This document shows, in pieces, positions 208 to 21,591 of a DNA stretch of 23,218 bases. Both the position numbers and the translations under genes were made by a program. The DNA is taken from positions 1 through 23,218 of IMG/VR virus record IMGVR_UViG_3300042542_000932. One strand, given 5' to 3'. Positions within the stretch are counted from its first letter, which is position 1. Each line of letters starts with the position of its first letter. The stretch is from a virus. The notes below the pieces were generated by a model. That model was not told the origin of the DNA. It did not search any database and saw nothing but the letters and a program-made list of their open reading frames with translations.

Positions 208-711
208 ATGGGTATTGTAGATATAGACGATATTTCAGAAGATGTCACTAACATTGTTGACTTTATGGACAATGTTCTTGCCCGTTTAGAAGATGTTTTT
301 GAGTCGTATAACGTTCCGCTTCCGGCAAGACGGTACTGGACTGTTGGCCAGCCAGCAATTGACTGTGAACAGCTCGTCATTACGCTTATTCAAATCTATC
401 TCGGCCCTCCAGGAGATCAAGCCGCATCTCCGCAAAGATGCAATATGCCGAGAACGGCCGTGATGAGTGTAATGATTGCAAGAGAAATTCCAGTGGTTGG
501 TCAAAATGGTAGACCGCCGTCGGCAGAAAAGATCAACGATGCCGCAAAAATATCTGCAATTGATGCGTACACTATGATGCAGTCAATTAATGTCTTTGAC
601 GTTTGGGAGCCTGGTGGCTACGGCGTAGGCGTAATTGCAACTGCTGATATTCAAGAGCCGCAAGGTGGCTTTCAAGTTGTTAATCTACAGCTCACGATGG
701 CGATCCCATAA
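208..711 (+). CDS. Putative tail terminator or neck protein
   Basis: This 167-residue protein starts at an ATG two bases after the upstream stop and ends in a TAATG overlap with the next gene. It has an N-terminal helical stretch (LARLEDVFESYNV), then PARRYWTVGQPAIDCEQLVI around residues 40-60, a GPPGDQ turn, a lone Cys in PQRCNMPR, and an acidic and hydrophobic C-terminal half ending in strands (GGFQVVNLQLTMAIP). The layout, a helix then a small alpha/beta domain with a GGF-type strand near the end, is what tail terminator proteins of actinophages usually look like, and the place beside an HK97 gp10-like gene supports a role at the head-tail junction. The precise role (terminator, stopper or other neck protein) cannot be settled from sequence alone. 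Confidence 0.6.
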   Translation: MGIVDIDDISEDVTNIVDFMDNVLARLEDVFESYNVPLPARRYWTVGQPAIDCEQLVITLIQIYLGPPGDQAASPQRCNMPRTAVMSVMIAREIPVVGQNGRPPSAEKINDAAKISAIDAYTMMQSINVFDVWEPGGYGVGVIATADIQEPQGGFQVVNLQLTMAIP

Positions 712-1109
712 TGGCAAAAAACATAGAGATTAAGTTTAAGCCAAACGATAGCGGTCTATATTATACACTAAAAGCCCCCAATGGCACAGTTGGCAGACAC
801 CTAAAAACAAGAGCAGAACTTATTCGCAGTCTCGCAAGAGTGCGAGTAGGCAAAAGAACAGGCGCTCTTGCAATGTCGCTATACATTAATCAGACCGTGT
901 TTCTTAACGGGCAAATAATTGAAATTGGATCTAAGCTACCGTACGCGCTTTTTCATCACGAAGGCACTCGCCCTCACGTTATTCACGCGCGACAAGGAGG
1001 AACTCTTCGGTTTACTAGCAGCAGCCGAATTGTCTACTCAAGGGCAGTTATGCATCCTGGAACTAAGGCAAATAGGTACCTGGCTGACTCGCTTCCTTTG
1101 ATACTATAG
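711..1109 (+). CDS. HK97 gp10-like tail completion / neck protein
   Basis: This 132-residue basic protein shares its first base with the stop of the preceding gene (TAATG). The C-terminal half carries the hallmark run of the HK97 gp10-like family: PYALFHHEGTRPHVI around residues 77-91, then LRF, the strand RIVYSRAVMHPGTKANRYL around residues 106-124, and a short terminal helix. Proteins of this family sit at the joint between head and tail and complete the tail end. Its position just before the tail assembly chaperones agrees with that. The family assignment is fairly firm; whether it acts as terminator-adjacent joining protein or stopper is inference. The stop overlaps a ten-base palindrome, TACTATAGTA, at 1102-1111. 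Confidence 0.8.
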   Translation: MAKNIEIKFKPNDSGLYYTLKAPNGTVGRHLKTRAELIRSLARVRVGKRTGALAMSLYINQTVFLNGQIIEIGSKLPYALFHHEGTRPHVIHARQGGTLRFTSSSRIVYSRAVMHPGTKANRYLADSLPLIL

Positions 1110-1165
1110 TAATGACGCGCTATACGTCGACGTGACATCACGACTAATAGATATGGAGAAATTAG

Positions 1166-1522
1166 ATGGCAAGATTTAAAGACTTTGGATCAGGAGCTTC
1201 TAACGGCTCAGCACCTGCTGAACTTATTACGTTTAAGCTTCATGATGAAGAATTTACATGCAGGGCTGAAATCCCTGGCAAGACAGTTCTAAACCTTGTT
1301 GCAGGGTCGTCAAGCGACAACCCTGGCGAGGCCGTGGCTGTAATTACTGTTTTCTTTAAAACAGTACTTATCCCAGAAAGCTATGAGCGATTTAATGTTC
1401 TTGCTGAAGATCCTGATCGTTTAGTGTCTATGGAAACATTAAGCAGCATCATCGAGTGGTTGGTCGAGCAGTATACCGACCGCCCTACGGTGCGGCCAGA
1501 AGCTTTGCCGAGTGGGCAATAG
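1166..1522 (+). CDS. Tail assembly chaperone, short frame (G-like)
   Basis: This 118-residue protein starts at ATG 1166 behind GGAG at 1155-1158. It has the usual actinophage chaperone plan: a polar N-terminus, FKLHDEEFTC, a central helical part with ITVFFKTVLIPESYERFN, then LSSIIEWLVEQYTDRP near the C-terminus. Tail assembly chaperones bind the tape measure during tail assembly and are not in the finished virion. The gene sits directly before the tape measure, as expected. The last 106 bases (1417-1522) overlap an open frame in the -1 register that continues to 1905, so a fraction of ribosomes is predicted to shift and make a longer G-T protein. The short product ends soon after the shared region with RPEALPSGQ. 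Confidence 0.85.
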   Translation: MARFKDFGSGASNGSAPAELITFKLHDEEFTCRAEIPGKTVLNLVAGSSSDNPGEAVAVITVFFKTVLIPESYERFNVLAEDPDRLVSMETLSSIIEWLVEQYTDRPTVRPEALPSGQ

Positions 1523-1905
1523 ACCTCTGGCCGTATGTTAATGGCAAAGCTGTAGCATCTGGGCTCGATCTTACGAGTCTAAATGCAGCAGATCTTATAG
1601 ACGTTTTTCATTACTATTTTGAAGAAGATGCAAATTTTGCTTCTGGAGAACAAATGGAAGCTCGAGATAAAATGCGTAGCACTATTTATAGAGAGCTGTA
1701 CCTACGCTCGTATAAGTATGGCTCGTCGTCTTCTACAACTACTGATTTCAGCGCGTTAGATGACCCACTAAACGACGATATACCTACCCCTGTAGACCCA
1801 ATGGTTAAATCATTCTCTGCTGTAAAACCATTCGTGCCAGCTACTGAAATAAATGAAGGGTCTTCTAAGCCGTTTGGGCGGCTACTTGATGCTCCACTAG
1901 GCTAG
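1456..1905 (+). CDS. Tail assembly chaperone, frameshifted extension (T-like)
   Basis: The frame is open from 1417 (after a TGA at 1414-1416) to a TAG at 1903-1905. A GTG at 1456 would permit separate initiation, but it has no clear ribosome binding site and lies inside the upstream gene, so I read this as the C-terminal extension made by a -1 shift. From RSFAEWAIDLWPYVNGKAVASG it has an aromatic helical segment, then FHYYFEEDANFASGEQMEARDKMRSTIYRELYL, and a low-complexity Ser/Asp/Pro tail. The length and place, between short chaperone and tape measure, match the T domain of G/GT systems in long-tailed phages. The extension would recruit major tail protein to the tape measure-chaperone complex. 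Confidence 0.75.
   Translation: MVGRAVYRPPYGAARSFAEWAIDLWPYVNGKAVASGLDLTSLNAADLIDVFHYYFEEDANFASGEQMEARDKMRSTIYRELYLRSYKYGSSSSTTTDFSALDDPLNDDIPTPVDPMVKSFSAVKPFVPATEINEGSSKPFGRLLDAPLG
1483..1488 (+). other. Candidate -1 ribosomal frameshift site
   Basis: The two chaperone frames overlap from 1417 to 1522, and moving from the first to the second needs a -1 shift. No classical X XXY YYZ heptamer in the right phase is visible. The best single-codon candidate is the zero-frame Pro codon CCT at 1484-1486, preceded by C, so the same tRNA could re-pair on CCC at 1483-1485 and go on with TAC. The joined protein would read TDRPYGAARSFAEW. This placement is inference. Confidence 0.35.
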
Positions 1906-1917
1906 TTATAGACAGGA

Positions 1918-1923
1918 TAAAAT
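1918..1923 (+). promoter_or_regulatory. Possible -10 box before the tape measure gene
   Basis: TAAAAT lies 39 bases before the tape measure start, inside GGATAAAATAG, just after the chaperone stop. Similar AT-rich boxes occur in most other gaps of this window. No convincing -35 box is present, so this is weak. Confidence 0.25.
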
Positions 1924-1940
1924 AGTATATGACGCAGCAG

Positions 1941-1950
1941 AAGGAGGTGA
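1941..1950 (+). promoter_or_regulatory. Very strong ribosome binding site of the tape measure gene
   Basis: AAGGAGGTGA is a near-complete match to the anti-Shine-Dalgarno sequence and is followed by a six-base spacer to ATG 1957. It is the strongest such site in the window and fixes the start of the tape measure gene. Confidence 0.85.
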
Positions 1951-1956
1951 AGAGAC

Positions 1957-4900
1957 ATGGCTTTAGTTGGCACAGCAAGCATAAGAATTAGAGCGATTAC
2001 CACTGACTTTGAAGCTGAGCTAAAGCGTGCAGTTAGTAAAATTCAGTCACTGCAAGGCAGAGGCGACATCGGCGATCTTTTTAAGAATAGCAGGAAATCT
2101 TTTGCGCAAATAGGCAGAGAGGCTGATGCAGTTTACGACTCTATCAATGGGCTAGTCACTAAAAGTTACTATTTACAGTCTGCTATTTCTGCGTTAGTGC
2201 CTGTTCTTGCTTCGGCTGGCGCAGGTCTATTTGCACTTGGCTCTCAAGCGGCGTCAGCAGGACCGGCTCTTGTAGTATTGCCATCTATGCTCACGGCTAT
2301 AATGCAAGCAGCCATTACAGCAAAGCTCGCGCTTGGTGGCGTGTTTAAAGCTGTCGGCGAGCTCGGAAGAGCGAAGACTTCCGCTATAGATCAAGTGCCT
2401 GCAAAACTTGAAGCATTTCGCTCCGCGCAGGAACGACTAAGACGTTCAACAAAAGCTCTTGAAAAAGCGTATCGCGACGCAAATGAACGAATTGAACAAC
2501 TTACGTTTAGTATTGAAGACGCAGCAATTGCCGAAACAAGAGCTGCGATGGCTCTTAATGATGCAAGGGCTACGCTTGCTCGAGTTCAAGACTTGCCACC
2601 AAACTCAAGGGCACGTAAAGAAGCAGAACTTGCATTTAAAGAAGCGGATCTCAACTATAGAAGAGCCGTAGACACAAGCAAAGATCTTGCAGATGAGCAA
2701 AACCGTGTAACTAAAGACGGAACGCTAAATAGCGACGAACAAATAGCGCAATCCGAAGAGGTAGTTAATGCTATCTACGAGAACGAGCAGGCTACTAAAG
2801 CTGTTGCAAAAGCACAACTTGAACTAAATAAGGCGCGAAAAGGTAGCGGCGCACTTGATGAATTTAATAAACTGTCAAAAGCAGGGCAAGAATTTGCAAA
2901 ATTTCTTGCAAATCTTAAGCCAAAGATTCAAGAGCTCAAAGACGCAGCAGGCGAGAAGCTTTTTGCACCATTACAAACTGCAATACAAACTCTTGTTGAT
3001 AAATTTTTTCCAGTACTAATACCTCTTCTTAAAGACACAGGCGGCGCTTTTGGCAACGCAGCAATTGACTTTGCAAAAGCTGTAACAAGTACTGATAATT
3101 TAAAGAACTTTGAGATTGTCGGTAGAACAAATATTGACACGATAGGAAAACTTGGAAAAGTACTTGGCAATCTCTATGGCGTATTTGTGGCTGTTCTTGC
3201 AGCGGCAGATCCTTTAATCCGTAGATTTACAGACTGGGTTGTTGCATTAACTGACGGGTGGAGAAACGCCGACATTCTTAAGAATGAAGGCGGCAAACTG
3301 ACAGATATGTTCAATAAAGCCGGCGATGCTGCCGCGCAATTAGGCGACATTATTGGGAACTTAATTGGCGGTTTGATTAACATGGGCAAGGCCGCGTCTG
3401 GCCCTGGCAGCGGCGGACAACTAATCTTCGACGCGTTAGAAAGAAACACACAAAAATTTAAGGACTGGTCAAAGGCTGTTCTTGAAGACGGGTCATTAAA
3501 AGAATACTTTAGAGGAGCGTCTGAAAATTTCTTAAAAACAGCCGGAATATTTGGCAAAATATTTAAGATTATTGCTAAGTCTGCTACGCAAGCAGGTACA
3601 GGAGAGTTCTTAGATAGCATTTCTCGCGCTGTTGACACACTTGCTGTCGGTTTTGATCATCTTGTCGGAGCAGCTCCCGCATTCGGCAAGTTTATTGAAG
3701 GAATGGCAAGATTTATAGTTGCTTTTATGGAGTCTGGTAGTATTATCACATTCTTTGAAGTCCTAACTACAGCAGTAAACTTTGCAGCAAGCATCTTTGA
3801 AAACGAGTTTGTGAAAAAAATATTTAACGTACTTGCTGTTTTACACGGTTTTAAGCTTGCGATTATGGTCTTAAAAGGCGTTTTTATAGCATTTGGGTAC
3901 TATATAATTGGAATGGCTCAGGCGGTGTGGGCGCCGCTTAGCGCCGTGTTCACATTTCTAACAGGCACAATGGGCATGGCGGCGGGCGCAGCAATTGGGC
4001 TTATGGCAGGCGTTGCTGCTCTTGTCTACGTGCTTGTTCGTGCATATATGGAAAGTGAGAAGTTTAGAAACGCTCTTGCTGATCTTGGAAAAGCGATTTG
4101 GGGCGCGCTTGTTGACGCAGTGAAAGAGGTTCGCGAGGCGTTTAGTAGCATTTTTAGTAGTGGCTCTGGCCAATCAATTACAAACGGTTTTAAAGCTTTT
4201 GGAGACTTTCTTGCTGCGTTTATCATACCGCTTTTAAAGGTGCTTATCCCAGCTGCTATTAGTGTTCTAAAAAACGGCATTATCGGATTGATGAAAATAA
4301 TTGGCGGTGTTATAAAAGTTGTCATGGGTCTTTTTAGTATTATTATGGGAGTTGTTCGCCTTTTTACTGGAGACTTTTCAGGCGCATGGGAAGGCCTGTC
4401 TAGCGGTGTAGCTAACATTGTTGGCGGACTAGTTCTAGTAATTAGAGGTATATTCCAAGGACTTATTGCTTTTTTAATTGGTCTTTTTCCGCCGCTGCTT
4501 ATCCCGTTCGCGCTCGTGCGTCTTGCAATAGCCGCAATTGGCACAGTTCTTAGTTTTGTTTGGAATAACGTCATTAGACCAATTTTTGAAGCGTTTGGTA
4601 TTGTGTTCCGTCTCGTGTGGGACAGTATCTTATTTTATTTCAATACCATATGGACCATCATTACTACCGCAATTACATTTGCATGGAATAACGTCATTAG
4701 ACCAGTGTTTGACGCAATTGGCCGCGTGTTCGGGACCATATGGTCTGGGATTCAAACAGCGTTTAGTCGAGCATGGGACTTTATTACTGGTGCTGTCAGA
4801 GGTGCTGTGTCTATCTTTGGCGGAGTGCGCGACACAATTGTTGGCGCATTTAGAAACGCTATCAACTTTATTATCCGCGGCTGGAACAACCTAGACTTTA

Positions 4901-5232
4901 CTATTCCAAAAGTAAAAGTTGCCGGCATTTCATTTGGCGGATTCACTATTGGACTTCCAGACATTCCAGAACTTGCCGAAGGTGGTATTATCAACCCAAC
5001 GCCGGGCGGAACTCTTGCCCGTATTGGCGAGGCTGGAAAAGCAGAGCGTGTCGAGCCTCTTGACCCTGATGGACTTTCTAAGAGAGATAAAGCCATAATT
5101 GCTATGCTGTCTGGCAGCACAGGCGGCGGTATCACTCTCAATGTCTACCCGTCGCCTGGCATGAACGAGGTAGAACTAGCAGCACTCGTCAACAGACAAC
5201 TTGCTTTTCAGCTTAGAAGAGGGGCAGCATAG
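1957..5232 (+). CDS. Tape measure protein
   Basis: This is the longest gene in the window, 1091 residues, directly after the chaperones. Residues about 68-130 are hydrophobic and Ala/Gly-rich. Residues about 147-295 are a long charged coiled coil (LRRSTKALEKAYRDANERIE and following). Residues about 620-695 and 745-865 hold several hydrophobic helices. Residues 869-960 contain two copies of a WNNVIRP unit typical of tape measure C-terminal halves, and the protein ends with a Gly-rich EGGIINPTPGGTLARIGEAG segment and a short amphipathic helix. Tape measure proteins set tail length and can be ejected to form a channel through the membrane. At the usual rule of about 1.5 angstrom per residue, a tail of roughly 160 nm is expected. 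No lysozyme or peptidase domain is seen. Confidence 0.95.
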   Translation: MALVGTASIRIRAITTDFEAELKRAVSKIQSLQGRGDIGDLFKNSRKSFAQIGREADAVYDSINGLVTKSYYLQSAISALVPVLASAGAGLFALGSQAASAGPALVVLPSMLTAIMQAAITAKLALGGVFKAVGELGRAKTSAIDQVPAKLEAFRSAQERLRRSTKALEKAYRDANERIEQLTFSIEDAAIAETRAAMALNDARATLARVQDLPPNSRARKEAELAFKEADLNYRRAVDTSKDLADEQNRVTKDGTLNSDEQIAQSEEVVNAIYENEQATKAVAKAQLELNKARKGSGALDEFNKLSKAGQEFAKFLANLKPKIQELKDAAGEKLFAPLQTAIQTLVDKFFPVLIPLLKDTGGAFGNAAIDFAKAVTSTDNLKNFEIVGRTNIDTIGKLGKVLGNLYGVFVAVLAAADPLIRRFTDWVVALTDGWRNADILKNEGGKLTDMFNKAGDAAAQLGDIIGNLIGGLINMGKAASGPGSGGQLIFDALERNTQKFKDWSKAVLEDGSLKEYFRGASENFLKTAGIFGKIFKIIAKSATQAGTGEFLDSISRAVDTLAVGFDHLVGAAPAFGKFIEGMARFIVAFMESGSIITFFEVLTTAVNFAASIFENEFVKKIFNVLAVLHGFKLAIMVLKGVFIAFGYYIIGMAQAVWAPLSAVFTFLTGTMGMAAGAAIGLMAGVAALVYVLVRAYMESEKFRNALADLGKAIWGALVDAVKEVREAFSSIFSSGSGQSITNGFKAFGDFLAAFIIPLLKVLIPAAISVLKNGIIGLMKIIGGVIKVVMGLFSIIMGVVRLFTGDFSGAWEGLSSGVANIVGGLVLVIRGIFQGLIAFLIGLFPPLLIPFALVRLAIAAIGTVLSFVWNNVIRPIFEAFGIVFRLVWDSILFYFNTIWTIITTAITFAWNNVIRPVFDAIGRVFGTIWSGIQTAFSRAWDFITGAVRGAVSIFGGVRDTIVGAFRNAINFIIRGWNNLDFTIPKVKVAGISFGGFTIGLPDIPELAEGGIINPTPGGTLARIGEAGKAERVEPLDPDGLSKRDKAIIAMLSGSTGGGITLNVYPSPGMNEVELAALVNRQLAFQLRRGAA
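4561..4704 (+). repeat. Internal repeat in the tape measure gene (123-base period)
   Basis: The 21 bases starting TGGAATAACGTCATTAGACC occur at 4561 and again at 4684, an exact 41-codon offset. The protein units read WNNVIRPIFEAFGIVF and WNNVIRPVFDAIGRVF. They look like an in-frame duplication of one helical turn unit. Confidence 0.85.
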
Positions 5233-5234
5233 GT

Positions 5235-5240
5235 TATGAT
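5235..5240 (+). promoter_or_regulatory. Possible -10 box before the fibre gene
   Basis: TATGAT lies three bases after the tape measure stop and 39 bases before the GTG start at 5274. A matching -35 at 16-18 bases upstream is not evident. It is listed because the same arrangement recurs in other gaps. Confidence 0.3.
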
Positions 5241-5273
5241 TACTAATGAACATTTGAAACGGAGAACCCTACG

Positions 5274-6617
5274 GTGACACTACTAATTGACGGCGTAACG
5301 CCATTACCAGAAAACGGCGACACAGGTTGGGGCACAGTACTTAATGCTGCAATCAACGCCATTGACAACAGATTTGTCTGGGCGAGCGGTCAGGCTGTTG
5401 CGAGCAAGGCAGCAGCAAGCGGCATTACAGGCACGACGCTAGCATCTAATGTAGTATCGTCTAGTCTTACTTCAGTAGGAACACTGACGTCTCTTGCAGT
5501 ATCTGGAGCTATCACAATAGGCGGTGACTTAACTGTAAACGGCACTACCACTACTATTAACACTGCTACTCTAAGCGTGTCTGATAATATCGTTATTCTT
5601 AATAGCGACGTGGCTGGCTCGCCAACTGAGAATGCAGGCATAGAAGTAGAACGCGGTACTTCAACAAACGTCTCAGTGCGCTGGAACGAGACAACAGATC
5701 TTTGGGAGTTCACAACAGACGGAAGCACTTATAATGCGTTTAACGCGGCTGCATCTATCACGGGCGCGACACTTGCTGCTAACGTACTGTCATCAAGTCT
5801 GACAAGCGTTGGGACAATTAGCAGTGGAACATGGCAAGGTTCAGTTGTTGCTGGTCAATACGGCGGCACAGGTGTTGCAAACACTGGCAAGACAATTACT
5901 CTTGGCGGCAACTTAACAACGTCTGGCGCATACGCTGTAACATTTACTGTAGGCGCTACAACATCTTTGACACTGCCAGCATCTGGCACAGTTGCAACTC
6001 TTGCTGGGTCAGAGTCACTGACAAACAAGAAACTTGGCAGTCTAACAAGCAATGGCATTGTAACAACGTCTGCGGGCGATGGTACTCTTGGTATAACGTC
6101 TACAACTGGGTCTGGAAACGTTGTTCTCGCTACGTCGCCTCAAGTAACGACTTCACTAACTACTGACAGCTCAACTTTTTCTCTTGTTAACTCGACAGCG
6201 ACAACAGTAAACTTTGCTGGCGCAGCAACAGCGCTGAGCATTGGCGCAGCGACCGGCACAACAACAATAAACAACGGTCTTACTGTTGCTGGAACAACTG
6301 TGCTTGGGCCTTCGTCAATTGCTCAGCAGTCAAGCGACTACACGCTAGTGTTAGCAGATCAAGGCACCTTAATAGAAATGACTAACTCTTCAGATGCAAC
6401 GGTAACTATCCCGCCGAACACTACAGCATTCCCAATCGGCGCGCAGATTACTGTTATTAGAAACGGATCTGGTAAAGTTTTATTTGCTGCTGGCGCTGGA
6501 GTAGCTATCTACTCTGACTCGTCAAAACTATATCTTTCTACGCAGTACTCTGCTGGCACTCTTATTAAGCGTGCTACAAACACCTGGTACTTGATTGGTA
6601 ACCTTTCAGCGTCATGA
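5274..6617 (+). CDS. Tail fibre / tail-tip structural protein
   Basis: This 447-residue protein starts at GTG 5274 behind GGAG at 5261-5264. The N-terminus (LPENGDTGWGTVLNAAINAI, residues 11-30) is a segment common at the start of phage fibre proteins, where it attaches the fibre. The rest is rich in Ser, Thr, Gly and Ala with many short strands. A 20-residue unit occurs twice, ITGTTLASNVVSSSLTSVGT at 51-70 and ITGATLAANVLSSSLTSVGT at 162-181. Between them lies a domain with VSDNIVILNSDVAGSPTEN and RWNETTDLWEFTTDGSTYN. A GGTGVANTG linker follows at about 197. The C-terminal domain (QSSDYTLVLADQGTLIEM onward) looks like a compact beta fold. Composition and place suggest a trimeric fibre involved in adsorption. 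The receptor is unknown. Confidence 0.75.
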   Translation: MTLLIDGVTPLPENGDTGWGTVLNAAINAIDNRFVWASGQAVASKAAASGITGTTLASNVVSSSLTSVGTLTSLAVSGAITIGGDLTVNGTTTTINTATLSVSDNIVILNSDVAGSPTENAGIEVERGTSTNVSVRWNETTDLWEFTTDGSTYNAFNAAASITGATLAANVLSSSLTSVGTISSGTWQGSVVAGQYGGTGVANTGKTITLGGNLTTSGAYAVTFTVGATTSLTLPASGTVATLAGSESLTNKKLGSLTSNGIVTTSAGDGTLGITSTTGSGNVVLATSPQVTTSLTTDSSTFSLVNSTATTVNFAGAATALSIGAATGTTTINNGLTVAGTTVLGPSSIAQQSSDYTLVLADQGTLIEMTNSSDATVTIPPNTTAFPIGAQITVIRNGSGKVLFAAGAGVAIYSDSSKLYLSTQYSAGTLIKRATNTWYLIGNLSAS

Positions 6618-8095
6618 CTCGTGGTTTTGTTGGTCTTGCGTCTAGTAGTGGCGGCGGTCCTGGTGGCCCAGGCAAGCCTCTAAACGTCGCGGCTGTGTCA
6701 GTGGCTAACGGCGCTAACTATGATATGCCTGTTTCGTGGAATGCCCCAGTAAGCAACGGTGGCAGCGCTATTACAGATTACACAATTCAGTACTCTACTA
6801 ATAGTGGCTCTACATGGTCTACGTACTCAAAGCCAGCAAGCGGCGCAGATACTGTTTTTTCAACAAACATCGGTACTGGTGCTGGCAGCGCCGTCAATGC
6901 AGTAGCGACACAGTCTGATAAAAAAATCATTGTAGGCGGCTCGTTCACCACTTGGAACGGTACAACAGTAAACCGTATTGTTCGTTTAAACTCTGACGGT
7001 ACAAGAGATACTGCGTTTACTACAAACGTCGGTACTGCCGCTCAGCAAGTTGTCACTTCTATAGCAATTCAATCTGATGGTAAAATAGTTGTAGGAGGCC
7101 AGTTCACCACTTGGAACGGTACAACAGTAAACCGTATCGTGCGCTTAAACTCAGACGGCACTAGAGATACTACTTTTACAACAAATACTGGTACTGGTGC
7201 TAATGGCTCTGTTTTTGCAGTAGCAATTCAATCTGACGGTAAAATTATTGTAGCTGGTTCGTTTACTACTTGGAACGGTGCAATGGTGGGCCGTATGGTT
7301 AGACTAAGTTCTGACGGTACAAGAGAGGTTGATTTTACCTTTAATGTTGCAGGAGGCGGCGATAGCAGCATTAATACAATAGCAATTCAATCTGACGGCA
7401 AAATTATTGTGGGCGGACTTTTTACTACTTGGGGAGTTATAGCAACTGTAAGAGGCATCGTTCGTTTGAACACTAACGGCTCTCGGGATACAACTTTTAC
7501 TACAAACACTGGAGCAGGCGCAGTTGCCCCTTCCGTTTATTCTGTAGCAGTGCAGTCTGATGACAAAATTCTCGTATGTGGCGATTTTGGCAATTGGAAC
7601 GGAGTAAATGTTGGAGCCATTGTTCGCCTCAATTCTAACGGCACTAGAGACACAGCTTTTACGACAAACGTTGGTACAGGCTCTGACGGCTTGCCTATCA
7701 ACGTAGCAACAGTCCAGTCTGATGGTAAAATACTTGTTGGTGGTGAGTTTGCTTATTGGAACGGTGTATTAGTAGATTGCATTGTTCGCCTAAACTCTGA
7801 CGGCACTAGAGATACTACGTTTACTACAGATACTAATACGCCAAATGGTTACGTTGAGTGTTTTGCACTTCAGTCTGACGGCGACATTGTTGTTGGTGGA
7901 GACTTCACGTTGTGGGGCATTGTAAATGCACCTGGTGTTGTTTTCTTAAACTTGAACAATTCTACATCTGTAGTGGCGTCTGGTCTAACTGCTAACGGCA
8001 CTAGTTACATTTTCCGTGTGCTCGCAACTAACGTTATCGGCAGCGGGCCGTACTCTGACGCTTCATCTGCTGTAGTAAACGGGATTAGCGAATGA
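6614..8095 (+). CDS. Tail protein: Fn3 domain with an inserted seven-bladed beta-propeller
   Basis: This 493-residue protein starts in an ATGA overlap with the fibre gene. After a Gly/Pro-rich leader (SSGGGPGGPGKP) comes the first half of a fibronectin type III domain (residues 21-77: MPVSWNAPVSNGGSAITDYT, WSTYSK). At residue 79 the Fn3 sequence stops and seven tandem repeats of 49-54 residues follow up to 448, each built as D-T-x-F-T-T-N, then QSDGKIIVGG.F, WNG, IVRLNSDGTR. This is the delta-60 / DUF5122-type propeller repeat. At 449 the Fn3 pattern resumes with VVASGLTANGTSYIFRVLAT and NVIGSGPYSDAS. Together the two ends make one complete Fn3 domain, so the propeller appears to sit in one of its loops. 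It probably displays a carbohydrate- or protein-binding surface at the tail tip; that function is inference. Confidence 0.85.
   Translation: MTRGFVGLASSSGGGPGGPGKPLNVAAVSVANGANYDMPVSWNAPVSNGGSAITDYTIQYSTNSGSTWSTYSKPASGADTVFSTNIGTGAGSAVNAVATQSDKKIIVGGSFTTWNGTTVNRIVRLNSDGTRDTAFTTNVGTAAQQVVTSIAIQSDGKIVVGGQFTTWNGTTVNRIVRLNSDGTRDTTFTTNTGTGANGSVFAVAIQSDGKIIVAGSFTTWNGAMVGRMVRLSSDGTREVDFTFNVAGGGDSSINTIAIQSDGKIIVGGLFTTWGVIATVRGIVRLNTNGSRDTTFTTNTGAGAVAPSVYSVAVQSDDKILVCGDFGNWNGVNVGAIVRLNSNGTRDTAFTTNVGTGSDGLPINVATVQSDGKILVGGEFAYWNGVLVDCIVRLNSDGTRDTTFTTDTNTPNGYVECFALQSDGDIVVGGDFTLWGIVNAPGVVFLNLNNSTSVVASGLTANGTSYIFRVLATNVIGSGPYSDASSAVVNGISE
6848..7957 (+). repeat. Seven tandem beta-propeller blade repeats
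   Basis: Residues 79-448 of the Fn3 protein divide into seven blades starting at residues 79, 132, 185, 238, 292, 346 and 400. Their lengths are 53, 53, 53, 54, 54, 54 and 49 residues. Each carries a QSDxKI(I/V)VGG strand and most an IVRLNSDGTR strand. Seven is a number that closes a propeller. The last blade is the most diverged. Confidence 0.9.
6944..7137 (+). repeat. Near-identical DNA repeat between blades 1 and 2
   Basis: A 35-base stretch starting TTCACCACTTGGAACGGTAC is identical at 6944-6978 and 7103-7137, offset 159 bases (53 codons). This is closer than the similarity among the other blades and suggests a recent duplication or gene conversion. Confidence 0.85.
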
Positions 8096-9303
8096 GTATG
8101 TTTTACACTCCAATTACATTTTATGGTGAAGGCGAATACGGCTCATACGCATACAATGACGGGCCAAGTCAAGGCATTGAAACAACAGCTGTCGATAGAA
8201 CTTTAATTCCTCTTCCGCCGCCAGTCTTTTCCGGCATGAAGCTTCAGTCGGACGTTATTCTTGGTAGCTTAGTTTTCAACACTATTGATGCAAATAACGT
8301 TATCTGGGTATGCACAGACATTGAAGGTTGGTGGGTTCACCCAGATCCAGACATCCCAGATGTAACTCGAGGCTGGCGTGATGGTTCATACGATGCTCGT
8401 GGGCGGTGGCAGGCTCGTCAAATAACTCTTACAGGCTCTATTCTTTCGCCTGACCCGAGTCTTTCGCCAGCCGCACGTAACACTCTTATCGAGGCAACGA
8501 GTTTAGTGTACACCGGGGCATGGTTAAAGACTATGGAGAATCCTACTCGAGCAGCGTACGTTCGTCTAAGCGGTCGGCCAAGTATTACAAGTACTACTGC
8601 GCGTGGTCGCATAGATTTTTCAATTGGTTTACGAGCTGCCGATCCGATTAAATACTCGTGGGACGACTCTGACCCAGACGGCTATGGCCTTGTGACTATA
8701 CCTTGCAAAAACGCTGCGACAACGCAAGACGGCCAAGAGTCCATTACTAACTTAGGTAATATTTCTGTTCCTGTGTTTTTGGAAGTTACTGGACCTACAG
8801 TAGGTGACACCACTGTAATTAATGAAACTACTGGTGAAGTACTGACAATTACAGGTACTCTTCGTGCATCAGAAGTTCTGACAGTGACAAATAAAGAGCT
8901 GACGTCTAATGAAGCCATTCTTACAGTATCTTCAGTCGGCAATCTTGTAGAAGGCGATACAGTCACTGTCGCTGGCGTAGATTCTACGTTCAACGGTTTG
9001 CATGTACTGACAGATGTAGACGCTGGCACAAATAAAATTCGCTATGCTCTTACTGCAACTACCGTGGTGTCTCAAGCAAGCTCGGGCACAGTGACTCGCG
9101 ACGCTGACTATTTGGAAATTGATACGCACGAGCGGGAGGTCGGTCTAAATGGGTCTACGTTTGGCGCACGAACATACATTGATACTCTTACGGACTGGGT
9201 TACTCTTCAGCCTGGCGCAAACATAATTAAGTTTATTGACGAAGGCGCAGCTAATGCTACAGCTTCTCTCAAAGTGTACTACAGATCCGGGTGGATCGGG
9301 TAG
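8092..9303 (+). CDS. Distal tail (Dit-like) minor tail protein with an inserted module
   Basis: This 403-residue protein starts in an ATGA overlap; ATG 8098 is an alternative start two codons later. The N-terminal half has GWWVHPDPDIPDVTRGWRDG, RGRWQARQITLTGSIL and a long helix (SPAARNTLIEATSLVYTGAW), the usual plan of actinophage Dit-like proteins that form the ring joining tail tube and tail tip. The C-terminal beta-sandwich begins at VPVFLEVTGP (226-235) and ends DYLEIDTHEREVGLNG, DWVTLQPGANIIKF and YYRSGWIG. Between ASEVLTV (259-265) and DYLEID (339-344) sits an extra module of about 70 residues, TNKELTSNEAILTV through SQASSGTV, which is repeated in the next gene. The gene precedes the hub gene, as Dit genes commonly do. 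Family call is by pattern. Confidence 0.75.
   Translation: MSMFYTPITFYGEGEYGSYAYNDGPSQGIETTAVDRTLIPLPPPVFSGMKLQSDVILGSLVFNTIDANNVIWVCTDIEGWWVHPDPDIPDVTRGWRDGSYDARGRWQARQITLTGSILSPDPSLSPAARNTLIEATSLVYTGAWLKTMENPTRAAYVRLSGRPSITSTTARGRIDFSIGLRAADPIKYSWDDSDPDGYGLVTIPCKNAATTQDGQESITNLGNISVPVFLEVTGPTVGDTTVINETTGEVLTITGTLRASEVLTVTNKELTSNEAILTVSSVGNLVEGDTVTVAGVDSTFNGLHVLTDVDAGTNKIRYALTATTVVSQASSGTVTRDADYLEIDTHEREVGLNGSTFGARTYIDTLTDWVTLQPGANIIKFIDEGAANATASLKVYYRSGWIG
8884..9096 (+). other. Inserted beta module, copy 1 (in the Dit-like protein)
   Basis: Residues 265-335 read TNKELTSNEAILTVSSVGN, then GDTVTVAGVDSTFNGLHVLT and a Val/Ser-rich end. This matches the plan L-T-S-N-x-A-x-L-T, G-D-x-V-x-V-x-G-V-D-S-T-F-N-G seen in three further segments of the hub gene. 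It interrupts the C-terminal beta domain of the host protein. Confidence 0.7.
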
Positions 9304-9337: not shown

Positions 9338-11317
9338 ATGCCGGTATTTGACCCATTAGTAGCAGAGTACAGATACTTTGTTGCTGACATTCTATCAAAC
9401 GAAGTTATTGCAGAACTGCCGCTAAAAGGCGTAACCTACGAGCGCGCAATTAAAAGCGCTGGCAGTTTCAGCGCAAGTATGCCTATCATTGATGCAACGT
9501 CTGCGTACAATATGTACGAGTACACAATGCCCGGAAAGACCGCTCTTTACGTTGTACGTAACAACGAATGCGTTTGGGGCGGAATCATATGGTCGCGCGC
9601 GTATTCCGCCGCTAACCGTGAGTTGAGTATTAGCGGTTCTGAGTTTACAAGCTATTTTTACCATCGCAATGTCTGGAAAACGTACAGTCATCAGTTTGAG
9701 GCGTCTATTACTGCGTCAGGCGGCACTGCTGCTGTTACACTAACAAACGCAACGTACCCATTCTCAGCAGGTATGCCTTTACGCATCGATTTTGTTGGTT
9801 CTTTATCTAGCTATAATGGCGCAAGGACTGTGCTTGCTAGTCCTGCGCCAACTGCTACTACCTTTTCAGCCACTATCACTGGTCTACCAAACGATTCGTA
9901 TACTGGAGTAACTATTACCGTTCGCATTGACAGCTACGACTACGTGCGTCGTCTTATTGACACAGTTCTTAGCGACTTTAAAGATATGGCATTTGCAAAT
10001 AATGAAATCGAGCCAAGTCTGCAAAACAGATACAACATTACAAATAAAGTACTGACAAGCAATACTGCCACACTTACTACTTCTGTAGCACATGATGTGA
10101 TTGTCGGGCAGGTTGTAGATATCGAGAATGTAGACAGCACTTTTAATGGCGCTCACGAAGCGTCTGCAATTACTAGTAATACTGTTTCATACCAAAAAAC
10201 AGCAACAAATGTTGCGTCAACAGCTGTGTCCTCTGTTGCGCGATCTGTTACATTGCGGCAATTTGACGCGCCAAGTAGCACTGCTACTTTGACTACATCC
10301 GCGTCTCACGGCTTTTCGGTAGGTAACGTAGTTGAGGTATCTGGTGTTGACGACCCGTCGCTAAGCGCGACGGTGTTTAACGGTAAATTTGCTATTACAG
10401 GCGTGCCAGCGGCAAACCAGTTTACGTATTTTTCATACTTTGGCAGTAACATTGACTCTGGTGCCACGAGCGGCACAGCAACTGTTGTACCATCGCTATG
10501 GTCTAATACGTTTGGGCCGTTTAGTGGTAACGCAGATTTCGGCCTTGAGTATTCAACAGCAGACTATAGTGGTGTTAATCTTTCAAACGTAATATTGCGA
10601 GGATTTGAACTCAAGTCGGTCGGCGAAGAATTAGACACATACTCAGACTCAATTAACGGTTTTGAGTATCGCATTGATTGTTCATATGACGTAGCTACTT
10701 CTTCTTTTAAAAGAACGTTTGTTTTAATACCCATTAACTTCCCAAATCCTCCACCTTCTGGAGAAGCTTCTCCAATTACACGTTTTGGCGCACAAAATCT
10801 TGTTTTTGAGTTTCCCGGAAATATTAGCACTGTTAGCATTGACGAGTCTGCAGAAGACGCTGCAACAAGATTTTTTGTTGTTGGCAACGATCCAGCACTT
10901 ACTGGAGACGCAAGTCAGCCTTATGCAGTCGCAAGCGCAAAAGATCTTCTCAATGACGGCTGGCCATTGCTTGACGGCGAAACTTCTAAAAATGATTTAA
11001 TCAATGAAGAAGCGTTGTACGACTATGCTAGTAGATATATTTCCGAGTTTCGTCCGCCCGTAACCGACATAAAAGTATCTGTTAATGGCTCGCTAGCTCC
11101 GCAGGTTGGGACATACAGCCCCGGCGACTGGTGCTGTCTAATTATTGATGACTACTTTGTTCAGCAGCGTCTTTTAAGCAAACTAGAACCAAGATCTGAT
11201 CTTCTTGTGAGAAAAATAGAATCATTTAAAGTTTCTGTTCCAGATAATCCATCGTTTCCTGAGCAGGTTGATTTAGGCCTGATCACTGAGTGGGAGGTAG
11301 ACAAAGTTGGCGAGTAA
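9338..11317 (+). CDS. Tail hub (Tal-like) minor tail protein with inserted modules
   Basis: This 659-residue protein starts at ATG 9338 behind GGAG at 9326-9329. The first 120 residues carry the typical start of phage hub proteins: YRYFVADILSNEVIAELPL, YERAIKSAGSFSASMP, then ALYVVRNNECVWGGIIWSRA and a RELSISGSEFTSYFYHR strand-helix. Three beta modules follow (121-196, 234-304, 307-384), separated by short hub segments such as YDYVRRLIDTVLSDF. The hub fold then resumes with GVNLSNVILRGFELKSVGEELDTYSDSINGFEYRID and ends in strands (YSPGDWCCLIIDDYFVQQRL). Hub proteins close the tail tube and trigger DNA release. The protein is longer than simple hubs mainly because of the modules. No peptidase motif is apparent. 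Confidence 0.8.
   Translation: MPVFDPLVAEYRYFVADILSNEVIAELPLKGVTYERAIKSAGSFSASMPIIDATSAYNMYEYTMPGKTALYVVRNNECVWGGIIWSRAYSAANRELSISGSEFTSYFYHRNVWKTYSHQFEASITASGGTAAVTLTNATYPFSAGMPLRIDFVGSLSSYNGARTVLASPAPTATTFSATITGLPNDSYTGVTITVRIDSYDYVRRLIDTVLSDFKDMAFANNEIEPSLQNRYNITNKVLTSNTATLTTSVAHDVIVGQVVDIENVDSTFNGAHEASAITSNTVSYQKTATNVASTAVSSVARSVTLRQFDAPSSTATLTTSASHGFSVGNVVEVSGVDDPSLSATVFNGKFAITGVPAANQFTYFSYFGSNIDSGATSGTATVVPSLWSNTFGPFSGNADFGLEYSTADYSGVNLSNVILRGFELKSVGEELDTYSDSINGFEYRIDCSYDVATSSFKRTFVLIPINFPNPPPSGEASPITRFGAQNLVFEFPGNISTVSIDESAEDAATRFFVVGNDPALTGDASQPYAVASAKDLLNDGWPLLDGETSKNDLINEEALYDYASRYISEFRPPVTDIKVSVNGSLAPQVGTYSPGDWCCLIIDDYFVQQRLLSKLEPRSDLLVRKIESFKVSVPDNPSFPEQVDLGLITEWEVDKVGE
9698..9925 (+). 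other. Inserted beta module, copy 2 (hub protein, most diverged)
   Basis: Residues 121-196 read EASITASGGTAAVTLTNATY, then FSAGMPLRIDFVGSLSSYNG and a Thr-rich strand end. The order of strands and the S-x-x-N-G turn resemble the other modules, but the match is weaker. It separates two hub segments. Confidence 0.5.
10037..10489 (+). other. Inserted beta modules, copies 3 and 4 in tandem (hub protein)
   Basis: Copy 3 (residues 234-304) starts TNKVLTSNTATLTTSVAH and has VDSTFNGAH. Copy 4 (307-384) has STATLTTSASHGFSVGN, VVEVSGVDD, then TVFNGKFAITGV and SGATSGTATV. Copy 3 is very like the module in the Dit-like gene (TNKxLTSN, VDSTFNG). Such modules are often matched by automatic tools to an E1 enzyme FCCH-like small beta fold; the name does not imply enzyme activity here. 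Confidence 0.7.
11292..11297 (+). promoter_or_regulatory. Ribosome binding site deciding a TTG start
   Basis: GGGAGG lies inside the end of the hub gene with a nine-base spacer to TTG 11307. It supports TTG as the start of the fibre protein, with an 11-base overlap between the genes. Confidence 0.7.
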
Positions 11318-13173: not shown

Positions 13174-14160
13174 ATGTTTATTGCTATTGAAGGCGCCGAT
13201 GGCGCAGGCAAAAGTTCGCTGATTGCGGCAATTAAATCGCAGCTGCTGGTTAAGCAGCCGAGTCTTCAAATTGTCGATCATCATAAAGGTAGACCGCCAG
13301 AAGAGACTCGTGAATGTCTTCTCTATGAATACGCCGCAAGTCTTGAAAGTGCAGATCTTTATGAGTCCGTGCATATTGCAGATCGCTGGCACTGGGGCGA
13401 ACGTACTTACGCGCCAACTAAGCGCCCTCACACTAATACTGACGGGTACGGTCTTCTTGGCAAGTCAGGCTGGCGCTGGGTGGAGCTGTTTATGCAGTCT
13501 CGTGGAATGGCACAGTTTATGTTATTCCAAAAACTTGATGTTATACGGGAAAGAGTAGCCGCGCGTGGCGATGACTACATTGAAATGTCAGAACTTGAAG
13601 AAATCTACAATGCGTATATAGAAACGTCTCAGGTTGCCATTCTTACCGAGACAATTATGCCTGGTAAAACAAGTTTTGAAAGTCTGCCTGGTTTTGCAAG
13701 TCATATTATTGATGTGGCAAATGCAGTAGCTGCGCGCGTTGAGTGGTTGCGCGCGTATCCTAGCTATATTGGGTCATCTCGCCCGCAGATTCTTTTGCTC
13801 GGTGATGACTTCAACGACAATAGTGAATTTGCTAATATTCATAATCTTCCGTTTATCCCAACGCCTGGCAGTTACAGCGAGTTTCTTTTTGAAGCATTCC
13901 CTGAAGATTTGTGGAAAAATGTTGGTATTATTAGCACTCGCTGGATTGGTTCAGATGAATTAGTAAATTTGCATGCAAAACTTGGCCGTCCTACGATTAT
14001 AGCTTTAGGTACTGGAGCAGAACGATTTATTCTTAGGACTACAGTTCATGTAGATGACTATGTCACTATTCGTCACCCACGGGCGGCAATGGACGATGAT
14101 CGTAGCGAGTACGGTTTACAAATTCAACAGGCAAACAAAAGAAAGATTGCAAGTAAATGA
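13174..14160 (+). CDS. dNMP (thymidylate-like) kinase with a C-terminal UDG-superfamily-like domain
   Basis: This 328-residue protein has two parts. Residues 1-190 are a P-loop nucleotide kinase of the thymidylate kinase kind: EGADGAGKSS at 6-15, the ADRWHWGERTY segment at 69-79 in the place of the DR(Y/H) motif, and RGDDYI-ELEEIYNAY in the lid/helix region. Such kinases raise dNMPs to dNDPs. Residues 204-310 are a separate alpha/beta domain: ILLLGDDFND, LPFIPTPGSYSEFLF, VGIIST, GRPTIIALGTGAERFI and IRHP. The order of these pieces resembles uracil-DNA glycosylase superfamily proteins, but the catalytic residues cannot be assigned. At 328 residues it is far longer than the usual 200-230 of the kinase family. 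It overlaps the next gene by ATGA, so kinase and synthase-family enzyme are probably co-translated. Phosphorylating a modified dCMP, as T4 gp1 does, is inference. Confidence 0.75.
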   Translation: MFIAIEGADGAGKSSLIAAIKSQLLVKQPSLQIVDHHKGRPPEETRECLLYEYAASLESADLYESVHIADRWHWGERTYAPTKRPHTNTDGYGLLGKSGWRWVELFMQSRGMAQFMLFQKLDVIRERVAARGDDYIEMSELEEIYNAYIETSQVAILTETIMPGKTSFESLPGFASHIIDVANAVAARVEWLRAYPSYIGSSRPQILLLGDDFNDNSEFANIHNLPFIPTPGSYSEFLFEAFPEDLWKNVGIISTRWIGSDELVNLHAKLGRPTIIALGTGAERFILRTTVHVDDYVTIRHPRAAMDDDRSEYGLQIQQANKRKIASK

Positions 14161-15017
14161 GTGCTTCAGTTATTGAAATACAAGATGGCGTTAATGGATA
14201 CGTAGATCTTGTTGGTCATGTTCTTAGACATGGAGAAAAGGCCGCTCCTCGTGGAATGAATACGCGAGAAATAGAAGATGCCGTTATTTATATTAATGAT
14301 GTGTATCACACACTCCCTGTCAAAGTTGGCCGCGGCACTGTTCCAGGGATTGGCGCAGTTGAAGCTTGTCAACTATTGTCTGGTACAAGTTTTCCAAAGA
14401 CTGTAATTGCAATTGGGCCGCAGTTTAAGAATTACACAGAAGACAGCGGCATTTTTCACGGAGCGTACGGGTTACGCACTAGTGGCCAGTACGACGCAGT
14501 TATTGATAAACTTAAAAGCGACTCCGACTCACGGCAGGCTGTTGTGACAATATGGAATCCAGAGTACGACAATCAGCCAAATAAACGCGACTACCCTTGC
14601 ACAGTTCTTCATCAGTTCCGTATCCGCAATGACAAGCTCAACATGAGCGTGTATATGCGTTCAAACGATGTATGGCTTGGCGCCGCATACGATTTTTTTC
14701 AATTTACCCAGGTGCAGATTGCTCTAGCGTCTGTTTTAGGCATAGAGCCTGGTAAGTACGCTCATCATGTAGGGTCATTGCACATTTATGAACAGCATTA
14801 CACATCCGCTGAAAGTCTTACGTATACCAATGATCTTGTCGATATCCCAAGCATAACGGGCTCTACATGGACTGACGTAAGCGCGTCAGCACTCAAAGCA
14901 TTAAATACAGTAGATAATGACACAATTATTCCGCAACTAAACGCCGCTGAACTGTGGCACGCTAATGCTATGATTACTGCAGTACAGAAAAATAAAGGAA
15001 AAACTAGTAATGAGTAA
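14157..15017 (+). CDS. Thymidylate synthase-family enzyme, predicted dCMP (hydroxy)methylase
   Basis: This 286-residue protein shows the whole thymidylate synthase fold pattern: HGAYGLR (101-107), DSRQAVVTIWNP (124-135, phosphate-binding Arg), YPCTVLHQF with catalytic Cys148, RSNDVWLG (168-175), and GSLHIYEQH (206-214). In thymidylate synthase the RS(C)DVFLGLPFN motif ends with an Asn that binds the uracil ring; here the same position is Asp179. T4 dCMP hydroxymethylase has Asp at this site, as well as MRSNDV and VGSLHVY segments that closely resemble this protein. The likely reaction is therefore CH2-THF-dependent hydroxymethylation (or methylation) of dCMP, not dUMP methylation. Whether water or hydride ends the reaction cannot be read from these residues. 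It lies between a dNMP kinase-like gene and a dCMP deaminase gene. Confidence 0.8.
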   Translation: MSASVIEIQDGVNGYVDLVGHVLRHGEKAAPRGMNTREIEDAVIYINDVYHTLPVKVGRGTVPGIGAVEACQLLSGTSFPKTVIAIGPQFKNYTEDSGIFHGAYGLRTSGQYDAVIDKLKSDSDSRQAVVTIWNPEYDNQPNKRDYPCTVLHQFRIRNDKLNMSVYMRSNDVWLGAAYDFFQFTQVQIALASVLGIEPGKYAHHVGSLHIYEQHYTSAESLTYTNDLVDIPSITGSTWTDVSASALKALNTVDNDTIIPQLNAAELWHANAMITAVQKNKGKTSNE

Positions 15018-15192
15018 TTTTGATTTTGACGAGCAGTCTCCGCTAAAAGCTGCAGCAGTTTCTATGCATGAATTGTACGTAACTCTAAAAGAAGCTGGTT
15101 TTTCTAGAAGAGACTCTATAGAACTCATTGCTAAAATTCTTACAGGGACTATATCAGACGCAATGATAAATCAACCAGAAGAAGACGAATGA
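15010..15192 (+). CDS. Small acidic hypothetical protein (60 residues)
   Basis: The gene overlaps the end of the synthase-family gene by eight bases and the next gene by ATGA, and has AAAGGA about ten bases upstream, so it looks like a real member of the operon. The core SMHELYVTLKEAGFSRRDSI reads as one amphipathic helix, followed by ELIAKILTGTISDAMI as a second. The ends are acidic. Similar tiny helical proteins with a HELY-LKEAGFSR core recur in actinophages. I cannot assign a function; a small adaptor or regulator of its neighbours is only a guess. Confidence 0.7.
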   Translation: MSNFDFDEQSPLKAAAVSMHELYVTLKEAGFSRRDSIELIAKILTGTISDAMINQPEEDE

Positions 15193-15677
15193 CAGACGAA
15201 CGGCCATCGTGGCATGAAACATGGTTAGCAGTAGCAGAAACAGTAGCTAAAAGATCTCGATGCACTAGAGCTCAAATGGGCGCAGTAGTTGTATCTCGAG
15301 ATAATCATATTGTAGCAACTGGCTATAACGGCCCATCAGCAAATTGGCCAGAGCAAGGCGAGTGCATAAATTGGTGCGAACGCGCGCAAGGCAAGACTCC
15401 TCTTGACGGACTGTACGACGCGTGCCCGTCTATACATGCTGAGGCAAACGCCTTGCTGTACGTAGATCGTTCTCGTAGTCTTGGCGGTACTATTTACATT
15501 GTCAGTGCGCCATGTATGCAATGCGCTAAACTAATATCAAACTCTGGGATTACTCACGTGGTTTGTAGACTTAAAAAAGCAGACATGCACCGTAACCCGT
15601 ACGGCGTATTAGAATATCTACGCAAGTGCGATATTGAAGTGACAGTTATAGAGGACGAAGATGCCAAATACCCATGA
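15189..15677 (+). CDS. dCMP deaminase
   Basis: This 162-residue zinc deaminase has the motifs HAE at 83-85 (Glu85 proton shuttle) and PCMQC at 108-112, with C109 and C112 as zinc ligands. It also has RAQMGAVVVSRDNHIVATGYNG and a substrate loop GECINWCERAQG, as in ComEB/dCMP deaminases. It converts dCMP to dUMP, the precursor of dTMP. The length is normal for the family. It starts in an ATGA overlap with the 60-residue gene and overlaps the polymerase gene by 17 bases. In T4-like phages a deaminase works beside dCMP hydroxymethylase to balance T and modified C; the same balance is plausible here. The family assignment is firm; the specific substrate dCMP is the usual one. Confidence 0.9.
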   Translation: MTDERPSWHETWLAVAETVAKRSRCTRAQMGAVVVSRDNHIVATGYNGPSANWPEQGECINWCERAQGKTPLDGLYDACPSIHAEANALLYVDRSRSLGGTIYIVSAPCMQCAKLISNSGITHVVCRLKKADMHRNPYGVLEYLRKCDIEVTVIEDEDAKYP

Positions 15678-20805: not shown

Positions 20806-21591
20806 ATGTCACAAGTACAACGTTCACTAACTATTATGGTCTATGGCGAATCAAAGGTTGGTAAATCTACCTTTGCAGTCACAGCACCATATCCACGTCT
20901 CATGCTCGACGTTGAAGGCGGACATCGTTTCTTGCCAATCAACGTTAAGTATTGGGATCCACTACGCGAGGAGCCACCAGTAGCTGATGGCACTTGGGAT
21001 ACATGCGTTGTCAACGTTACAGACTACGACACAGTGCTCAAGGCATATCAGTGGCTACAGCTCGGTAAGCATCAGTTCAAATCACTTATCATTGACTCAG
21101 TATCTGAGCTTCAAGTTAAGTGCGTTGATAACATTGCTGGAAAAAATCAAATGCAAATGCAACAGTGGGGCGAACTTCTTCGTCACATGGGCGCGTTACT
21201 TCGAGATCTCCGAGATCTTACAATGCACCCGACTAACCCGATAGAGGCAGTAGTTCTTACAGCAATGGCACGACAAGGGCAAGATGGTAGATACCGTCCG
21301 TACCTTCAAGGTCAGCTTGCTATCCAAGCTCCATATTTCTACGACATTCTTGGCGCAATTAGCGTTGAAGAATTCCCTAGTCAAGACCCAACGCAGCCGC
21401 CATACAAAGCGCGTCGTATGTACGTTGAGCGTACAAATCAGTACGAAGCAGGCGAGCGAGTTCAAGGCCGTCTAGGTAAGATCGTTGAGCAGCAACACCT
21501 CGGAATTGAGGCAATGCTTGACATAGTTTTCGGACCACGTCCGGAAAAAACAACAACAACAAAAACAGAAGGACATGGTGAACAATCATGA
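20806..21591 (+). CDS. Sak4-like (RecA-type) ATPase, recombination protein
   Basis: I choose ATG 20806 because AGGA at 20792-20795 is ten bases away; the in-frame ATG at 20797 would leave almost no spacer and adds only three residues. The protein has 261 residues. Walker A is GESKVGKST (14-22) and a Walker B strand is SLIIDS (Asp97). A histidine- and acid-rich stretch, LDVEGGHRFL, follows the first helix, as in Sak4-type AAA/RecA-core proteins. The C-terminal tail is Thr/Glu-rich. Sak4 proteins are single-strand annealing proteins that need ATP and a partner SSB, and here the SSB-like gene follows in an ATGA overlap. Annealing of ssDNA during recombination-dependent replication is the expected role. 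Confidence 0.85.
   Translation: MSQVQRSLTIMVYGESKVGKSTFAVTAPYPRLMLDVEGGHRFLPINVKYWDPLREEPPVADGTWDTCVVNVTDYDTVLKAYQWLQLGKHQFKSLIIDSVSELQVKCVDNIAGKNQMQMQQWGELLRHMGALLRDLRDLTMHPTNPIEAVVLTAMARQGQDGRYRPYLQGQLAIQAPYFYDILGAISVEEFPSQDPTQPPYKARRMYVERTNQYEAGERVQGRLGKIVEQQHLGIEAMLDIVFGPRPEKTTTTKTEGHGEQS

Follow-up and report, generated by a model that had tools for sequence, protein, structure and literature searches.

A predicted seven-bladed delta-60 propeller nested in a single Fn3 domain, encoded in the tail-tip gene block of an uncultured phage

Domain structure of the gene and its neighbours

The window, i.e., the whole stretch of DNA analysed here (23,218 nucleotides), is IMGVR_UViG_3300042542_000932, an uncultured-virus contig of about 23 kb from a metagenome. 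The ORF at 6614-8095 (plus strand) starts with ATG, encodes a protein of 493 residues and shares a 4-nt ATGA overlap with each of its neighbours, the fibre-like gene upstream and the Dit gene downstream (Table 1). Since a tape measure gene and the fibre-like gene lie upstream, and Dit and Tal-like genes downstream, the ORF belongs to a siphovirus-type tail-tip block. The Dit (residues 265-344) and the Tal-like protein (residues 234-310, and more weakly 282-382) have a module of about 80 residues in common (41% identity, E 1e-10), which looks like another exchangeable tail-tip insert because it is absent from the Dit of a related phage (L195), where the alignment jumps from 255 to 339. Elsewhere in the window, the ORF at 21588-22163 ends in a long Ala-Pro-rich repeat, and the region 13174-15677 holds ORFs with a dTMP kinase-like N-terminus, a thymidylate synthase-like and a ComEB-type deaminase-like sequence, all below curated cut-offs.

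Table 1. Features of the tail-tip block and of the nested gene (positions refer to the window, residues to the protein encoded at 6614-8095)
Feature	Position	Strand	Basis
Tail length tape measure protein	1957..5232	+	phrog_4197, E 6e-57
Fibre-like / virion structural gene, upstream; its stop overlaps the ATG of the nested gene	5274..6617	+	phrog_6002, phrog_8780
N-terminal segment, residues 1-20 (MTRGFVGLASSSGGGPGGPG)	6614..6673	+	alignment with propeller-less L078, L079, L111 and filled L034
Fn3 N-terminal part, residues 21-76, strands A, B, C, C'	6674..6841	+	Pfam fn3 profile 5-41; strands 23-27, 35-43, 55-61, 69-71
Inserted, predicted seven-bladed delta-60/DUF5122 propeller, residues 77-448	6842..7957	+	seven DUF5122 stretches; TIGR02608; model
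Leading DTVFSTNI element, residues 79-86	6848..6871	+	outer element absent from blade 7; helix 80-86 in model
Blade unit 1, residues 94-146	6893..7051	+	repeat listing
Blade unit 2, residues 147-199	7052..7210	+	repeat listing
Blade unit 3, residues 200-252	7211..7369	+	repeat listing
Blade unit 4, residues 253-307	7370..7534	+	repeat listing
Blade unit 5, residues 308-361	7535..7696	+	repeat listing
Blade unit 6, residues 362-413	7697..7852	+	repeat listing
Blade unit 7, strands A-C only, residues 414-448	7853..7957	+	repeat listing; no DTxFxTN after it
Fn3 C-terminal part, residues 449-488, strands E, F, G	7958..8077	+	Pfam fn3 profile 46-82; strands 452-458, 464-472, 477-480
Distal tail protein (Dit); its ATG overlaps the stop of the nested gene	8092..9303	+	Pfam SPP1_Dit, E 4e-10; phrog_33
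Tail-associated (Tal-like) minor tail protein	9338..11317	+	phrog_1885, E 3e-31

The Pfam fn3 profile (PF00041) matches the intact 493-residue protein in two stretches, residues 27-65 (profile 5-41) and approximately 450-486 (profile 46-82), with 34.8 bits for the split match, above the gathering cut-off of 25. Taken alone, both ends fall below this cut-off (residues 1-77: profile 5-41, 22.2 bits; residues 446-493: profile 46-82, 20.1 bits); joined, they give a continuous match to profile positions 5-82 with 45.5 bits (E 8.7e-12). The half scores are additive and the profile parts do not overlap, as expected of a single interrupted Fn3. Aligned with intact Fn3 domains, the interrupted one breaks off after S76 and resumes at N449, which is in the C'-E loop, and hardly any Fn3 sequence, if any, has been lost: the interrupted loop reads ...WSTYSKPAS^[propeller]^NSTSVVASGLT..., and an uninterrupted Fn3 reads ...WTPFVRPASTATSAVVTGLS....

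Between the two halves, Pfam DUF5122 (PF17164) was found in seven stretches (265 bits, cut-off 27, E 1.7e-80), and NCBIfam delta_60_rpt (TIGR02608) scored 191 bits against a cut-off of 76.5. There are seven A/B-turn motifs (QSDxKI; residues 100, 153, 206, 259, 314, 368 and 420) and seven DTxFxTN elements (residues 79, 132, 185, 238, 292, 346 and 400), A-B-C units alternating with DTxFxTN elements at a unit spacing of 52-55 residues. Because the first DTxFxTN element (residue 79) precedes unit 1 and unit 7 is without one, it is the N-terminal element that would close the ring. Exactly 7, 14 or 21 blades were counted in 35 of the 46 complete delta-60 ORFs in the fetched loci, which suggests that seven blades make up a closed unit. 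The delta-60 arrays of the viral loci L003-L076, with 7, 14 or 21 blades, amount to one to three successive rings, and many of them are preceded by YVKVxGxWK-type repeats. When isolated phages were searched by tblastn, the only ones with similarity to the propeller (weak, over residues 94-432) were two phages of Stenotrophomonas, each about 320 kb long, and a sequence search of the PDB matched Fn3 relatives (titin) and no delta-60 structure.

The structure was predicted with AlphaFold2 from an alignment in which rows for the N-half and the C-half of the Fn3 were kept separate, the window protein and the filled relative L034 being the only sequences that link the halves. Alignments with whole Fn3 rows were discarded, as their rows were scattered through the propeller, and so was one (A6) in which N-half rows were split. 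The model of the whole protein (mean pLDDT 89.4, pTM 0.82) places strands A, B, C and C' by residue 72, seven blade repeats at 80-445, and strands E, F and G from residue 452, i.e., all seven strands of the Fn3 sandwich (A B E / C C' F G) are present in the correct order. Each blade repeat has three strands, mostly with a short helix after them, and residues 1-20 are of low confidence. The order was identical in a first model from a thinner alignment with fewer Fn3 rows, in which pLDDT was about 60-75 for most of the Fn3 and below 50 for its last strand. Using Foldseek, the best matches in the PDB were propellers, with CylK first (7dvq_T reached a TM of 0.74 by target length with the first model), and the top two in a viral library were phage proteins, one of them named delta-60 repeat. 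Strand order, confidence and these matches point to a closed ring and to two Fn3 halves that probably pair in common sheets. The initial annotation had read residues 21-77 and 449-488 as one Fn3, with exactly seven propeller repeats between its halves and with WSTYSK running on to VVASGLT in the uninterrupted form. The complementary half-profiles and the seven A-B-C units and DTxFxTN elements bear this out, the boundary now being narrowed to S76/N449, and the whole-protein prediction that it had suggested, in which Fn3 strands surround the propeller, likewise speaks for a single Fn3 with seven blades.

Empty and filled Fn3 domains

Further loci were fetched via the propeller, the fibre gene, Dit and the Fn3 halves, and were scanned for split Fn3 domains. 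The gene order tape measure - fibre - [Fn3 gene] - Dit - Tal is common to the window and the loci L078, L079, L111, L192, L195 and L034. In five of these, which represent distinct related phages (L078, L079, L111, L195 and L192, the last comprising three near-identical contigs, L192-L194), the orthologous gene has an intact first Fn3 with an empty loop (L111: SGSTWTTFTDGVSATASTTVTGLSAGTSYTFRVLAKNAIGDGPYS). These orthologues share the N-terminus of the window protein and continue with further Fn3 domains after the first; the proteins of L078, L079 and L111 are about 640 residues long, have three or four Fn3 domains each and end in a different C-terminal region. The window protein stops after its first Fn3 and, lacking the extra Fn3 domains and the C-terminal region of the orthologues, may not occupy their position. 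In L034 (IMGVR 3300044675_004297), a seven-blade delta-60 propeller sits in the same loop, in the first of four Fn3 domains. As close relatives carry the same Fn3 with an empty loop, the propeller behaves like a plug-in.

Of the Fn3 domains of this type in the fetched viral loci, 273 distinct ones are intact and 2 are filled by a propeller, in a fetch-biased sample that does not represent a population frequency. Among the 62 fetched ORFs with at least three blades, most of which are free-standing tandem arrays of 7, 14 or 21 blades, a propeller inside an Fn3 was found only in the window protein and L034; a scan for the C-terminal junction gave nothing beyond these two, and a single-protein scan with L034 matched nothing except L034 itself. 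The search of viral metagenomes for Fn3 relatives with and without the insertion, as proposed in the initial annotation, thus found both at the same locus. The nesting had been called unusual: this stands as far as rarity is concerned, but it recurs in a second phage and in two analogous cellular cases (see below). Both domain families are already known; their nesting appears to be new, rare but recurrent, and in the open-access literature searched, no description of a propeller within an Fn3 turned up.

From these sequence comparisons, we regard it as almost certain that a complete seven-bladed delta-60 propeller splits one Fn3 at the C'-E loop. Contact between the two terminal pieces is not directly seen in the model, which would leave room for two separate partial Ig-like pieces that flank a tandem propeller without forming a joint domain. 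This arrangement is nevertheless very improbable, because the pieces match complementary parts of one Fn3 profile, continuous once joined, because no missing strands are found near either half, because the joined version is present in orthologues, and because A-B-C-C' and E-F-G occur in the model only as a set. Still slightly less probable is a fusion of a propeller gene with an Fn3 gene by an assembly or recombination artefact; the contig is of metagenomic source and the risk of misassembly is high for repeats, but a second, separate contig (IMGVR_3300044630_001354) is about 99.95% identical to the window over the region of the nested gene, the frame is open and overlaps its neighbours on both sides, and the same architecture is found in the second phage at about 51% identity. 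As far as can be seen, the nested gene does not appear to be an assembly chimera.

With support 98/97, the tree of the Fn3 shells groups the window with L078 and L079 (both empty), and L034 with L111, L192 and L195 (all empty). In the propeller tree, the window is placed with the Fn3-less proteins L004, L008, L022 and L029 (SH-aLRT 98), not with L034, and its propeller is 63% identical to that of L022 and 54% to that of L034. One nested clade of window and L034 was rejected by the AU test for the shell (p 0.029) but not for the propeller (p 0.12), the shell and propeller tests being weakened by short shells and homogenising repeats; for Dit, such a clade was not rejected either (p 0.18). Matching the propellers of the window and L034 blade by blade gave no register, so that common descent of the two nested arrays is not demonstrable in this way. 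Shell tree, propeller tree and identities lead us to favour two insertions that would have occurred independently; an old insertion shared by both, followed by exchange of the cargo and by several losses, is less favoured.

Bacterial and archaeal loci fetched with an Fn3 half and scanned for split domains yielded two further split Fn3 domains with recognisable cargo. A Thaumarchaeota MAG (NORP47; L286, ORF 2531-8131, residues 491-865) encodes six NHL repeats (E 4.6e-58) in a split Fn3, and an Actinomycetota MAG (L276, ORF 656-4978, residues 1205-1421) a CBM6-like insert of about 120 residues, whose match to CBM6 is weak (E 8.5e-5) and below its cut-off. A third cellular candidate (L277) was left uncounted, since its halves are weak. 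The archaeal protein resembles that of the window in having a propeller nested in an Fn3; however, its propeller is of the unrelated NHL family, the insert lies before C' rather than after it, and the carrier is a giant cellular Fn3 protein.

Possible role of the nested propeller

We slightly favour the view that the product of the gene is an accessory adhesin at the tail tip of a siphovirus-like phage, and that its Fn3 displays the propeller as a binding head; for host binding by the propeller itself, argued by analogy, we see an even chance. The propeller would form a closed, self-contained ring with both ends adjacent, so that a surface loop of the Fn3 could hold it while the sandwich stays intact. 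Attachment close to the Dit/Tal hub would be provided by the Fn3 together with the conserved N-terminal segment (residues 1-20, for which attachment to the virion is a possible function), and the head would reach the host surface, where its partner would probably be a glycan or a protein. Phages might gain, lose or exchange this head as a plug-in, like the CBMs in 'evolved' Dit proteins. Adjacency to Dit does not prove a location in the virion, and the protein is presumably placed at the tail tip.

The related Fn3 of L276, which holds the CBM6-like insert on the same edge, speaks for an adhesin, as do two precedents, the propeller in the receptor-binding protein of phage phi11 and the binding modules in evolved Dit proteins (see below). 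With the same nesting, the propeller might also be a passive or weakly adhesive decoration that extends or stiffens the tip, or gives a general hold on surfaces, without any part in the choice of host. The Fn3 and Ig-like domains of phages are mostly seen as accessory, at this locus five distinct relatives lack the propeller, which the tail in general therefore does not need, and relatives differ in how long their Fn3 gene is and what it contains. Even so, we consider mere decoration rather unlikely, because the recurring cargo consists of binding or display modules (two delta-60 propellers, one NHL propeller and one CBM6-like insert) and not of random folds. That the propeller is a tail-tip enzyme cutting or modifying a surface polymer is improbable: enzymes are common among propeller folds, and CylK, which heads the structural matches, is an enzyme, as are several further matches, but at 14-16% identity the likeness is confined to the fold, the repeats that make up the blades are regular, and no enzyme family scored above its cut-off in Pfam or NCBIfam.

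More tentatively, the C-C'-E edge of the Fn3 might be a general socket that has been plugged independently in phages and in cells (by delta-60 propellers at least twice, by an NHL propeller once, and by a CBM-like module), as this edge would tolerate cargo with close ends; among the relatives of the window, it would be filled, empty or refilled, and could so retune binding at the tail tip. For the Fn3 and Ig-like domains that are found here and there in phage tails, and whose function is poorly understood, orthologues that differ by a whole propeller in one loop constitute a natural experiment, which makes the idea of such domains as scaffolds for exchangeable host-binding heads directly testable, and an Fn3 loop that accepts an insert of 370 residues may be useful for protein engineering.

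Comparison with known systems

The blades of the window protein place it among the delta-60 proteins of viruses and bacteria (TIGR02608 / DUF5122, PF17164), with scores above the curated cut-offs of both Pfam and NCBIfam; rings of seven are also usual there, but those propellers are mostly free-standing, whereas that of the window is nested in an Fn3. Evolved Dit proteins carry inserted carbohydrate-binding modules (PMC8540738) and offer a parallel, a binding module inserted in a structural protein of the tail tip, although in the window binding is presumed, the recipient is the product of an Fn3 gene upstream of Dit (Dit itself is the next gene), and the cargo is a propeller. By analogy, the window protein may function like an evolved Dit, yet it is not one. 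The receptor-binding protein Gp45 of phage phi11 has a five-bladed propeller with a cavity that might accommodate GlcNAc (PMC4901313), and thus also places a propeller in the adhesion device of a siphophage; it differs in having five blades, in being trimeric, and in not being described as nested in an Fn3. Among the tail-tip proteins lambda gpJ and T5 pb3 (PMC10721106), lambda gpJ has domains inserted into domains; in these proteins, however, the Ig-like domain is the guest, whereas in the window the Fn3 is the host of the insertion.
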